22,538 bases of DNA from a virus. Where the stretch lies: IMG/VR virus record IMGVR_UViG_3300034062_007749, positions 1-22,538 of that record; one strand, given 5' to 3'. The notes under the pieces are model-generated. The model was not told the origin of the DNA. It did not search any database and saw only the letters and a list, made by a program, of their open reading frames with translations. This document shows positions 17,204 through 20,794 of this stretch, in pieces. Every line of letters begins with the position of its first letter. The first letter of the stretch is position 1. The translations under genes were made by a program, and so were the position numbers.

Positions 17204-17232
17204 GCCCCGCTCCAGAGGAGGGGCTTTTTTTT
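17204..17232 (+). terminator. Strong intrinsic terminator after the lysis genes
   Basis: GCCC (17204-17207) pairs with GGGC (17221-17224) and CTCC (17210-17213) with GGAG (17217-17220), with a two-base bulge and an AGA loop, followed by eight T residues (17225-17232). It separates late genes from the early region. Confidence 0.92.
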
Positions 17233-17269: not shown

Positions 17270-17298
17270 TTGACGGCGTTATTATCATATTGTATACT
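17270..17298 (+). promoter_or_regulatory. Sigma-A-type promoter P1 for the gene at 17347
   Basis: TTGACG (17270-17275) and TATACT (17293-17298) are 17 bases apart. The spacer ends in ATCATATTG, a diverged form of the ATCATATGA found at the same position in P2 and P3. It comes directly after the late terminator and drives a single-gene unit closed by the terminator at 17796. Confidence 0.85.
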
Positions 17299-17346
17299 GT
17301 TCTTAGGTGATACGGAAACGGTCACACTAAAACCAAAAGGCGGATG

Positions 17347-17784
17347 ATGAAAATGAAAATTTACGACAACGGAATTCTTTACAGCTTTTATGGATTAAAA
17401 ACTTTACTCCTTCGTTGTGATGGCGAACCAGTACCAAAAACTTTATTTCGCAATCCCGTCAGTTATGACCACGTCGTTTTGGAAAAAGAAGGCATCGACT
17501 ACGACGTTGTAGTTGACCACGAGGGGCAAAAAATCCCCGTTACGATGAATGGGATTGTTTTTAGCAGACATACATTAATTGACGATCTTGAAAAAGACTT
17601 AGTTTCTGGAAACTACGTGTTCTTTTATAAAGTTGATGACGCAATTTTGTATACGGAAAACAAATTCTTAAACGCATTGCAGTACGCATATAAATACACC
17701 CATCTAAAAAGCGTTGGCGATGCGCACTTTTTTGAAGCAGAAATCGATTTTGCCCTGCAAGAATCAGAAATTTTTGCAGGATGA
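17347..17784 (+). CDS. Hypothetical early protein in its own transcription unit
   Basis: ATG 17347 is chosen because AAAGG (17336-17340) is six bases upstream; ATG 17344 and 17353 are also in frame. The protein has about 145 residues and looks like mixed alpha/beta, beginning KIYDNGILYSFYGLKTLLLR, with VSYDHVVLEKEGIDYDVVVD in the middle and a Phe- and Tyr-rich end (VFFYKVDDAILYTENKFLNA). No membrane segment, zinc site or DNA-binding motif is seen, and I recognise no family. Having its own promoter with a shared regulatory palindrome and its own terminator, it behaves like an independently expressed early gene, possibly a host-takeover factor; that is inference only. Confidence 0.75.
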   Translation: MKMKIYDNGILYSFYGLKTLLLRCDGEPVPKTLFRNPVSYDHVVLEKEGIDYDVVVDHEGQKIPVTMNGIVFSRHTLIDDLEKDLVSGNYVFFYKVDDAILYTENKFLNALQYAYKYTHLKSVGDAHFFEAEIDFALQESEIFAG

Positions 17785-17795
17785 CTAAAAACATC

Positions 17796-17818
17796 ACCGC
17801 CCCACGGCGGTTTTTTTT
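17796..17818 (+). terminator. Intrinsic terminator after the gene at 17347
   Basis: ACCGCC (17796-17801) pairs with GGCGGT (17806-17811) around a four-base loop, and the T-run reaches 17818. It closes a one-gene unit. Confidence 0.9.
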
Positions 17819-17843
17819 GTATCAATTTCGCATCGTCAAGAAA

Positions 17844-17860
17844 TTGAAAAAATTTTTCAA
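17844..17860. promoter_or_regulatory. A/T palindromic element upstream of promoter P2
   Basis: TTGAAAAA and TTTTTCAA are perfect inverted arms around one A. It ends 18 bases before the -35 box of P2, the same distance as the element before P1. Confidence 0.55.
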
Positions 17861-17878
17861 AAAAGTTTATATATGCGC

Positions 17879-17907
17879 TTGACGCTATCGCAATCATATG
17901 ATATACT
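17879..17907 (+). promoter_or_regulatory. Sigma-A-type promoter P2 for the regulator-DUF2800 operon
   Basis: TTGACG (17879-17884) and TATACT (17902-17907) are 17 bases apart, with a TG extended -10. The perfect palindrome ATCATATGAT (17893-17902) overlaps spacer and -10, a natural operator position. The regulator encoded just downstream may bind here, but this is untested. Confidence 0.85.
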
Positions 17908-17963
17908 CTTATCAAGTCGCAAGGGAAACACGAGGCGACAAAATAAAAGGGGGAACACGCATT

Positions 17964-18293
17964 ATGGGTATTCTTATTGCAGAAAAGCGGCGTGATATGG
18001 GGATGACGCAACTGGAACTTGCGGAGCGCATCGGGGTACGACAGGAGACGATGTCACGCATCGAACGAGGGGCGCAGGTACCAAGCTACGTTGTCGCCAA
18101 AAGCATTGCAGAGGTATTAGGAGAGTCGAAAGCTTTCGAGCCTAGCGAGGGTAGCCATGAGCGATTTTTCCGCAACGCAAATCAGAGTCGAGCTTTCCGT
18201 TTCTTCAACATTGACGCTGTGAAAACGTTCCTAAGTGGTTCAGGCGTTGAGATTGACACAAGCAATATCTTTGGAGGAGGTGACAAGAGATGA
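17964..18293 (+). CDS. XRE-family helix-turn-helix transcriptional regulator
   Basis: ATG 17964 follows AAAGGGGG and gives 109 residues; the in-frame ATG at 17898 lies within promoter P2 and cannot be used from that transcript. Residues about 3-53 are a classic XRE helix-turn-helix: LIAEKRRDMGMTQLELAERI, then GVRQETMSRIERGAQVPSYV and AKSIAEVLG. The remaining ~55 residues (FRNANQSRAFRFFNIDAVKT) may serve dimerisation or ligand binding and match no domain I know. It is the first gene of an early operon, overlapping the DUF2800 start, so it may set the level of its own operon and of the other promoters with the ATCATATGAT palindrome. A lysogeny repressor role is possible but no integrase or divergent promoter is seen. 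Confidence 0.88.
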   Translation: MGILIAEKRRDMGMTQLELAERIGVRQETMSRIERGAQVPSYVVAKSIAEVLGESKAFEPSEGSHERFFRNANQSRAFRFFNIDAVKTFLSGSGVEIDTSNIFGGGDKR

Positions 18294-19318
18294 CGCAGAA
18301 ACACGCATTACTATCGCCAAGTGCAGCGTATCGGTGGATGGCTTGCCCCGCATCGATACAAGAGTGTCAAGAAGTGCCGTATAAAATGCCACGTGACACG
18401 AGCGCAGCAGAGTTAGGATCTAAGGTTCATGCAGCGGTTGAAAAAAAGTTTTCAGGGAAGGACGCAGAAGATGTTGAGGTGATTGAAAGCGCAGCGGACG
18501 ACTTTGTGGAGTATGTGAAGAGTTTCGATTTTGACACGGTGTACAGTGAAAAAACTCTATACATCAAGGAGCAACCCGATTGTTGGGGAACGGCGGATAT
18601 CGTAGGAGTAAAAGGCGACACGCTTTACATCATCGACTTGAAATATGGCATGTATCCCGTATCGGCGTTATGGAATCCACAATTGATGATATACGCTTGC
18701 GCCGCCTTGGATACACTGGATGGCTTGGAGCACGTGAAGGCGGTCACTATGATTATCTATCAACCACGATTAAAAAACATCGATGAATTCACGTTGTCAC
18801 GCAAATCGCTGGAAAACTGGAAGACAACAAAACTACTCCCATCCGCACAAATCGCACTAGGAAACTACGGAGAGTATGCGCTCGGAACGCATTGCCGATA
18901 CTGCCCCGCCAAAAGTGCATGCGTAGCACGAAACGGCGAAATTTTTGAAAGAGTCGTCGAGGCGTGTGGGCAGTATCGTGAGGTCACGGAAGATACGAAA
19001 TTGCAAATGATTGACAATATCATGAAACGTCACGATGAGTTATCGAAGTTTCTTAAAGAAGTTAAGGAATACGCACATTATGCGATGACGCAGGGTCATG
19101 AGTTTGAGAGCGTCAAGCTCGCAGACGGAAACAAAACAAGGTTTATCACAGACGTTGATGGATTAATTGAAAAGCTGAAAGAATTGGGAATTGATGAATC
19201 AGATTATAAAGATATGAAAAGCGTCGCATCGCTTGAAAAGATCGTCGGCAAAGACGTGCTACAGTTTTTCGTTGGCGAGCGAGCAGGTGCTCCTGTGGTG
19301 AAGAGGAGGATAAAATGA
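18290..19318 (+). CDS. DUF2800 protein, PD-(D/E)XK nuclease-like with iron-sulfur cysteines
   Basis: ATG 18290 overlaps the regulator stop and follows GGAGGAGG; 342 residues. The protein begins LLSPSAAYRWMACPASIQ and shows the RecB/Cas4-type layout: E41 and H47 (AELGSKVHAAVE), D103 in GTADIV, D116-L-K118 in YIIDLKYG, then NPQLMIYACA (Q131, Y135). C19 together with C202, C205 and C211 (HCRYCPAKSAC) could hold an iron-sulfur cluster as in Cas4 and AddB. DUF2800 genes commonly accompany DUF2815 genes in phage replication regions. The probable role is nuclease or strand processing in phage DNA replication or recombination; activity has not been shown for this protein. The C-terminal third (residues 220-340) is helical and charged. 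Confidence 0.85.
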   Translation: MTQKHALLSPSAAYRWMACPASIQECQEVPYKMPRDTSAAELGSKVHAAVEKKFSGKDAEDVEVIESAADDFVEYVKSFDFDTVYSEKTLYIKEQPDCWGTADIVGVKGDTLYIIDLKYGMYPVSALWNPQLMIYACAALDTLDGLEHVKAVTMIIYQPRLKNIDEFTLSRKSLENWKTTKLLPSAQIALGNYGEYALGTHCRYCPAKSACVARNGEIFERVVEACGQYREVTEDTKLQMIDNIMKRHDELSKFLKEVKEYAHYAMTQGHEFESVKLADGNKTRFITDVDGLIEKLKELGIDESDYKDMKSVASLEKIVGKDVLQFFVGERAGAPVVKRRIK

Positions 19319-19611
19319 ATCGCAAGGAGGTGTATGACATTTTGGTGAGCATAGACGCCGTGTTGAGCGGCGTTTATTCCCCACAAGAAAAACTTGACGC
19401 TGTGAAGGGGGTGGTGGATAGCTTTACAGGAGCATGGATCGAGTCGACGACTTATGAAGCCGTTTATGCGTTGGCTAAACAAAAGGTAAGCACTGGGAAG
19501 ATGATGCAGGTGAAGGCACTTGTTAAACTGTGCGGAGTGGATCGCTTGGAGGAGTTGAGAGATGACGCAACAAAGATGGCAGCGTTCCACGACTTTCTGA
19601 AAATTTTATAA
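19315..19611 (+). CDS. Hypothetical small protein coupled to DUF2800
   Basis: ATG 19315 overlaps the previous stop; 98 residues. The protein is mainly helical: VYDILVSIDAVLSGVYSPQE, KLDAVKGVVDSFTGAW, then KMMQVKALVKLCGVDRLEEL. No motif or family is recognised. It is the last gene of the operon from promoter P2 and its end lies 19 bases before the next -35 box, so no strong terminator fits between them. A helper of the DUF2800 protein is a guess based only on coupled translation. Confidence 0.65.
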   Translation: MNRKEVYDILVSIDAVLSGVYSPQEKLDAVKGVVDSFTGAWIESTTYEAVYALAKQKVSTGKMMQVKALVKLCGVDRLEELRDDATKMAAFHDFLKIL

Positions 19612-19630
19612 AAAAAAGTCGTTTCTACTG

Positions 19631-19659
19631 TTGCAATGGTTGCGCCGATGTGTTAATAT
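19631..19659 (+). promoter_or_regulatory. Sigma-A-type promoter P4 for the DUF2815 operon
   Basis: TTGCAA (19631-19636) and TAATAT (19654-19659) are 17 bases apart. The 18 bases before it match those before P1 at 14 positions (AAAAAGT...TACTG). Unlike P1-P3 it lacks the ATCATATGAT palindrome, so it is probably controlled differently. Confidence 0.72.
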
Positions 19660-19720
19660 GAAGTATAACGCTTTTGAGGGGGGCGATGCGTATGATTGTG
19701 TAAAGCCGTTGACGACACAC

Positions 19721-19780
19721 GAAACCGCATGAAACTGAACGAAACCGAACGAAACCGTATGAAACCGTATGAAACCAAAC
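19721..19780. repeat. Six iteron-like 10-bp tandem repeats (GAAACCGNAY)
   Basis: Exact 10-base periodicity: GAAACCGCAT, GAAACTGAAC, GAAACCGAAC, GAAACCGTAT, GAAACCGTAT and GAAACCAAAC, with another GAAACC at 19794-19799. They lie in the leader between promoter P4 and the DUF2815 start. Ten bases is close to one helical turn, so a protein could bind each unit on one face of the DNA. Options are an origin-type iteron array, a regulator site, or a structured leader RNA. Confidence 0.85.
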
Positions 19781-19799
19781 AAGGGGAGCAGATGAAACC

Positions 19800-20342
19800 A
19801 TGAAAACAACACTTAAAACAGTACGTTTCAGCTATGCGCATGTTTTTGAGCCACGAGGGTTTGACGGAAACACGCCGAAATACAGCGCATCGCTGTTGAT
19901 TGACAAAAGCGATGAAGCACTTGTAAAGCGAATCAAAGAGGCGTTACAGGTTGCGATTGACGAGGGTATCCCAAAAAAGTGGGGAGGGAAGAAGCCTGCA
20001 AAGCTTGACATTTGCTTGCGAGACGGCGACACGGAGCGACCAGAAGATCCAAACTATGCAGGGAAATACTACATCAACGCTAGCAATGTAAAGCAACCTA
20101 CGGTACTCAATCAATACGCTAAGCCAGCGACACAAGACGAGTTTTATAGCGGATGCTACGGCGTAGCGGTGGTGGACTTCTACCCGCACAGCCACAAAAA
20201 TATGAAACACGGCGTTTATGCGCAGTTGCTTGCGGTGATGAAAACGGAAGATGGCGAATCGTTCGGAGCGTCGGGGATCGACTTGTCGGAGCTAGCACAA
20301 TTCGCAGTGAAGCCAAGCGATACGGCGTTGGACTTCTTATGA
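19800..20342 (+). CDS. DUF2815 family single-stranded DNA-binding protein
   Basis: ATG 19800 follows AGGGGAG; 180 residues. The sequence fits DUF2815: VRFSYAHVFEPRGFDGNTPK, YSASLLIDKSDEALVKRIKE, then KYYINASNVKQPTVLNQYAK, EFYSGCYGVAVVDFYPHSHK and a Gly-Val-Tyr-Ala strand. The phage Enc34 member of this family is a known ssDNA-binding protein with an OB-type fold. The protein would coat single strands during phage replication. The expected acidic C-terminal end is mild here (LAQFAVKPSDTALDFL). The neighbouring DUF2800 gene supports a replication module. The long leader with six 10-bp repeats before this gene is unusual. Confidence 0.87.
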   Translation: MKTTLKTVRFSYAHVFEPRGFDGNTPKYSASLLIDKSDEALVKRIKEALQVAIDEGIPKKWGGKKPAKLDICLRDGDTERPEDPNYAGKYYINASNVKQPTVLNQYAKPATQDEFYSGCYGVAVVDFYPHSHKNMKHGVYAQLLAVMKTEDGESFGASGIDLSELAQFAVKPSDTALDFL

Positions 20343-20713
20343 TGAAGGTTATAATCAACGACACAATTGAAACGTTTTGGGAGTCGCTATTAATTAAAGG
20401 GATGCAGTCTCCCGAGCGGCAACTGATAAACCAATGCGCCGTTCCACAGTACGTTGTCCTCGGGGAAGGCAAAAACAAATGCGCCATCCGAAGAGATGGA
20501 GAAATCGAATATATTGAAGGCGACGCAGGTGTTTTAGAAGCGACGATTTACGGTGAAAATGAAGACCTCGTAAAGCTATTGCTGTTTCATGTAGGCGAAA
20601 TTATTTGTAAGTGCGACAATGGGATGATTTTTAAGGGGGTCATAAAAGAGTTTTCAGCAACAGAGGGCGTTTCGGGAGCGGTGAAAGTCACGATGCAGTT
20701 GTATCGTCTGTAG
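20339..20713 (+). CDS. Hypothetical protein coupled to DUF2815
   Basis: ATG 20339 overlaps the DUF2815 stop (ATGA); the next codon is also ATG (20342), so the protein has 123 or 124 residues. It is alpha/beta with a helix FWESLLIKGMQSPERQLI near the start, then CAIRRDGEIEYIEGDAGVLE, ICKCDNGMIFKGVIKEF and a closing strand VKVTMQLYRL. Three to four Cys residues are spread without a zinc-finger pattern. No family is recognised. It ends the operon from P4 and is followed by a strong terminator. A DNA-replication partner of DUF2815 is possible by position alone. Confidence 0.68.
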   Translation: MMKVIINDTIETFWESLLIKGMQSPERQLINQCAVPQYVVLGEGKNKCAIRRDGEIEYIEGDAGVLEATIYGENEDLVKLLLFHVGEIICKCDNGMIFKGVIKEFSATEGVSGAVKVTMQLYRL

Positions 20714-20724
20714 AAAGGCAACAC

Positions 20725-20753
20725 GGGAAAGTGAAAAAAACTTTCCCTTTTTT
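20725..20753 (+). terminator. Intrinsic terminator after the DUF2815 operon
   Basis: GGGAAAGT (20725-20732) and ACTTTCCC (20740-20747) form a perfect 8-bp stem followed by six T residues. The stem ends 18 bases before the -35 box of the next promoter, the same distance at which P1 and P2 have their A/T palindromes. Confidence 0.93.
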
Positions 20754-20765
20754 CTTAAAATGCGG

Positions 20766-20794
20766 TTGACATCGTCGCTATCATATGATACAAT
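20766..20794 (+). promoter_or_regulatory. Sigma-A-type promoter P3 for the downstream early genes
   Basis: TTGACA (20766-20771, consensus) and TACAAT (20789-20794) are 17 bases apart, with TG extended -10. The 12-base palindrome TATCATATGATA (20779-20790) overlaps the spacer and -10, matching P2. Confidence 0.88.

Follow-up and report, generated by a model that had tools for sequence, protein, structure and literature searches.

The window analyzed here, a 22,538-base fragment of an uncultured bacterial virus, contains three promoter-like sites, P1, P2 and P3, that follow a common layout: TTGAC(A/G), a 17-bp spacer, and ATCATAT(T/G)(G/A) adjoining the −10 box (Table 1). They are three of the top-scoring plus-strand promoters between 14000 and 22538, their −35 and −10 boxes are near consensus and spaced within the 16–18 bp range, and a terminator-like site lies directly upstream of each. 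P2 drives a unit of XRE and DUF2800-exonuclease genes, the first of which encodes a single-domain HTH_3 protein. The gene content of the units suggests that all three promoters act early. A fourth promoter in the interval, ahead of the SSAP gene, carries CCGA where the others have ATCA and is kept in two close relatives.

Table 1. Features of the window discussed in the text, with their coordinates.
Feature	Position	Strand	Description
P1	17270–17298	+	TTGACG (17270)-GCGTTATTATCATATTG-TATACT (17293–17298); 17-bp spacer; ATCATATTG at 17284–17292; behind terminator 17209–17231
P2	17879–17907	+	TTGACG (17879)-CTATCGCAATCATATGA-TATACT (17902–17907); 17-bp spacer; ATCATATGAT at 17893–17902; TRTG (TATG) at 17897–17900; behind terminator 17796–17818
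TGATA-N6-TATCA inverted repeat	17899–17914	+	spans the extended −10 and reaches the probable start site of P2; candidate operator for the promoter of the XRE gene
GTCGC...GCGAC hairpin	17916–17939	+	5' end of P2 transcript; −8.8 kcal/mol, z −6.0 (−5 to −6 across shuffles); G1 keeps the stem, with a shorter loop
XRE (Cro/CI-type HTH_3) protein	17964–18293	+	109 aa; PF01381, 4.9e-12; 434-repressor-like
SSAP promoter	19631–19659	+	TTGCAA (19631), 17-bp spacer, TAATAT (19654); TGTG extended −10
P3	20766–20794	+	TTGACA (20766)-TCGTCGCTATCATATGA-TACAAT (20789–20794); 17-bp spacer; 12-bp palindrome TATCATATGATA at 20779–20790; behind terminator 20725–20757

The close relatives that hold P1–P3 or parts of them are G1 (33.6 kb) and G2 (32.5 kb). 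G1 has a terminal repeat of 87 bases and is therefore probably complete, as is G13 (32.6 kb), given its terminal repeat of 127 bases. G13 is more distant than G1 and G2, with amino-acid identities of 81% for the capsid, 73% for the terminase and 42% for SSAP. Five further fragments (G14–G18) all contain a related promoter, P0, and most also contain the helicase promoter, Pa, and the terminase promoter. These genomes encode terminase, portal, capsid, tail, helicase, primase-like, RNR and exonuclease/SSAP proteins; the exonuclease, SSAP, XRE and methyltransferase were named by family-model matches and the other genes from our reading of their sequences. No tyrosine integrase was present in the five phage records searched, and we found no lysogeny module. 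The best match of the terminase (53%) is in Sporomusa and that of the capsid (36%) in the same class. A search of a phage DNA collection returned nothing matching the region, and a first scan of genomes yielded no relative. No host was found.

The leader of the SSAP gene contains tandem repeats, (C)GAAACCG(T/A)AT, at 19715–19800. The SSAP leader of G13 (about 23030–23120, minus strand) also has tandem repeats, GTCGGTAA, of a sequence unlike the window's. It is possible that these repeats are replication iterons or an RNA element.

A palindrome at the extended −10

A sequence-only reading of this DNA had proposed that P1–P3 share an identically placed palindrome, explained only in part by an extended −10 motif, that would serve as an operator for one regulator, perhaps the XRE protein, and make the three units a small regulon. 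Its description of the letters is accurate, including the boxes, the 17-base spacers, the block ending at the −10 box, and the perfect palindromes of 10 bases at P2 and 12 bases at P3. A search of the window for exact ATCATATGAT found two copies, at P2 and at 20780–20789 in P3. Dinucleotide shuffles of the window gave a mean of 0.02 copies, and 0 of 400 held two, so the palindrome occurs at more promoters than chance predicts, and at a fixed position. P1 has no palindrome: TTG adjoins its −10 box in place of the TG motif, and all that it has in common with P2 and P3 there is the left block, ATCATAT. The copy of P1 in G1 carries ATCATACAG, while the P2 element is the same in G1 and G2. The literature matches listed for the exact ATCATATGAT look unrelated by title and abstract.

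TRTG is found just upstream of the −10 box in many Gram-positive promoters (PMC10773906, citing Voskuil and Chambliss 1998, 2002). In the palindrome, TATG together with the first base of the −10 box forms this extended −10 motif and covers 5 of the 10 letters, the right half. Like the Gram-positive promoters, P2, P3, P0 and Pa have TATG one base before the −10 box, the SSAP promoter has TGTG, and the spacers are 17 bp behind TTGAC-type −35 boxes. Unlike them, P0, P2 and P3 have an extra (A/G)TCA upstream of TRTG, and P1, in both the window and G1, has the (A/G)TCA block without TRTG. The TG motif is thus part of the shared element at P2 and P3 but not, as had been proposed, at P1.

To judge how much of the palindrome this motif explains, we examined promoters elsewhere. 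The pattern TTGACR-N12-TATGATAYAMT has 44 matches in 398 Bacillota genomes, and its reverse has 0; in these bacteria TATGATA promoters are genuine and frequent. ATCA occupies the corresponding place in 0 of the 39 distinct extended −10 promoter sequences from these genomes. The extended −10 therefore does not account for the ATCAT half, just as the earlier reading held, and this half, which is not a generic sigma motif, needs explaining. In a viral collection, ATCA precedes TATGATA in 26 stretches, of which this phage group contributes six. A first control, ATGATATCAT, had 0 matches but removes the TG motif, so we replaced it with the fairer ACTATATGAT, in which ATCA is scrambled to ACTA. That control also matched 26 stretches, indicating that, beyond this phage group, extended −10 promoters carry the palindrome no more often than chance predicts.

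Conservation of the left block

We compared the P0–P3 block at 16 sites in nine related contigs (P0 in 8 contigs, P1 in 2, P2 in 3 and P3 in 3). All 16 carry the left block, (A/G)TCATA, without variation; the three bases that follow it read TGA, TGG, TGT, TTG or CAG. Dyad pairs are lost at P0 of four contigs (G2, G13, G14 and G15), at both copies of P1, at P3 of G1 and G2 (cATCATATGTTA), and at every Pa, and at no lost pair in the nine contigs did we find a compensating change on the other arm. In orthologous promoters, then, the half-sites are neither both conserved nor co-changing: the left half has been preserved, but the full palindrome has not.

The constraint can also be seen within P0. 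In seven close relatives, the neighboring spacer columns are variable in 8 of 8 cases, compared to 1 of 4 ATCA columns (Fisher p = 0.018). P1 has lost the TG motif and kept ATCATA. Because neither this retention nor the invariance of the left block is predicted by descent and sigma contacts alone, something may read the left block; both observations count against the account that we favor below.

Two other leads were set aside. In G2 and G15, a match to ATGATATGAT at the helicase promoter lies one register off; the boxes there, TTGCAA-17-TATGAT, are preceded by GAGTTATGA and lack the ATCA block. Counts of CATATG, considered as a methylation or restriction signal, are near expectation (7 against 6.5 in the window).

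A family of related promoters

P0, P1 and P2 are paralogous beyond their boxes. P1 of the window matches P0 of G1 at 78% over 120 bases, and P2 of the window matches P1 of G1 at 83% over 64 bases. Of 40 positions compared outside the sigma boxes, P0 and P1 agree at 31, P1 of G1 and P2 at 31, and the terminase promoter of G1 (P0late) and P2 at 20, where about 10–12.5 are expected. Upstream parts have been exchanged: P1 of G1 has a P2-like upstream element and P1 of the window a P0-like one. The spacer gcgttgca, common to P0 of G17 and P1 of G1, reads as a further sign of exchange. From these alignments, P0, P1 and P2 appear to derive from a single promoter cassette by mosaic duplication, which would explain much of the sharing of the block without a regulator. 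P3 is similar in the bases around its boxes, and its flanks have no clear homology.

P0late of G1 matches P2 almost throughout, from the start of the spacer to the likely start site, except for a block of nine bases: TTATCGCA-TTTTGCGTT-TACAATGGTATCA in the terminase promoter against CTATCGCA-ATCATATGA-TACAATGGTATCA in P2.

The gene between P1 and P2 (17344–17784) is replaced in G1 by an unrelated-looking ORF and is gone in G2, which retains a single promoter region. It is as if the homologous promoters on either side served as recombination points for cargo genes. Phage "moron"-type units consist of a promoter, a gene and a terminator. The series P1, gene, terminator, P2 resembles such a unit, including its different gene in G1 and missing gene in G2, but in this case the promoters on either side are duplicates too and appear to be where recombination took place.

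Possible regulators and the origin of the shared element

Could the palindrome nevertheless bind the XRE protein? A regulon controlled by an XRE dimer at ATCATATGAT would fit the exact placement of the element at three promoters and the position of the XRE gene behind P2, where the protein is 98–99% identical in G1 and G2. However, P1 and the P3 copies of G1 and G2 have lost the dyad with no compensating change, and G13, which like G3 has no HTH_3 match, keeps GTCATATGA at P0. In Cro/CI operators the arms lie about one helical turn apart, and the gapless five-base half-sites of ATCATATGAT, at best a putative site, would be closely spaced for such a dimer. A palindromic XRE operator at P1–P3 is unlikely, and we give the regulon built on it very little credence. 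What stands of the proposed regulon is a common promoter block, and duplication would explain much of its sharing.

A better operator candidate for the XRE protein, judging by its sequence, is TGATA-N6-TATCA. This repeat has 9 copies in the nine contigs, all at promoters, compared to 0.07 expected: at P2 of the window, G1 and G2, at Pa of G1, G14, G16, G17 and G18, and at one G13 promoter (18167–18152, minus strand). Around P2, the window and G1 differ at four positions in 86 bases, all four within the six inner bases, so that both arms are fixed. The arms are about one helical turn apart, and, as in the operator-promoter overlaps of 434 and lambda, a 434-repressor-like HTH_3 gene directly follows a promoter with the repeat over its −10 box. 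Against this, one G13 promoter carries the repeat although that phage has no HTH_3 protein, so operator and regulator do not co-occur across the relatives; Pa of G2, which does encode XRE, lacks the repeat; the TGATA arm coincides with TGn plus TA in the extended −10; and P0late has the GTATCA arm by itself. Unlike the 434 and lambda systems, these phages have no lysogeny module or tyrosine integrase that we could find. Autoregulation of XRE through this repeat, with control of Pa as well and ATCATATGAT not its site, is a tentative proposal, compatible with the explanation we favor below. An asymmetric operator is about equally doubtful. The stoperators of mycobacteriophage L5 are short asymmetric sequences that recur, always in one orientation, at a number of phage promoters. 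By analogy, (A/G)TCATA beside the −10 box might be recognized at several promoters by a regulator encoded by the phage or the host. The left block is invariant at all 16 P0–P3 sites and, at P0, tighter than the adjacent spacer; it is no general feature of extended −10 promoters, and it is absent from the terminase promoter, otherwise a copy of P2. Yet there are only 4–5 copies, all at a fixed position beside the −10 box, and their regulator is putative: none was identified, and searches of G1 and G13 turned up neither an integrase nor a second HTH_3 protein. The Pa and SSAP promoters of the same phages also lack the block, and shared ancestry accounts for part of the sharing. The more specific idea that these non-integrating phages mark promoters for a regulator by (A/G)TCATA, from which the terminase promoter escapes through its replaced nine-base block, seems to us somewhat more doubtful still.

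Two further observations concern transcript ends and G13. Small hairpins, weaker than that of P2, also lie in the first ~25 bases after P1 and P0. Three minus-strand promoters of G13 with unlike flanks (24987, 23188 and 15124) share TTGACA-NN-CATTGTC(C/G)GATATGATATGAT; their block, CATTGTC(C/G)GATATGA, differs from that of P0–P3. Within the shared stretch, GACA-N5-TGTC forms an inverted repeat that covers the −35 box, possibly an operator in this XRE-less phage.

The comparison with relatives suggests that the shared element was copied as part of a promoter module and is not a palindromic switch for the neighboring repressor-like gene. The account we think probable is that a promoter cassette for host RNA polymerase, with an extended −10, was duplicated and carried with it a constrained (A/G)TCA block. 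P1–P3 would be sigma-70/sigmaA-type promoters, with a predicted strength and timing, each behind a terminator and driving one small or replication-gene unit. The family of Pa, P0, P0late, P1, P2 and P3 would have arisen as a cassette consisting of an A-tract upstream element, TTGAC, the spacer and the −10 box was duplicated and exchanged. The TRTGn motif would then account for the palindrome's right half together with the first base of the −10 box, the left (A/G)TCA would be inherited with the cassette and kept perhaps for promoter tuning or as an asymmetric contact site, and the dyad symmetry would be incidental.

A palindrome shared by phage promoters can thus arise from a copied cassette and a TRTGn motif rather than from a repressor site. 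For the XRE protein, TGATA-N6-TATCA is the better candidate operator to look at, and P2 and the terminase promoter form a natural swap experiment on the role of the nine spacer bases.
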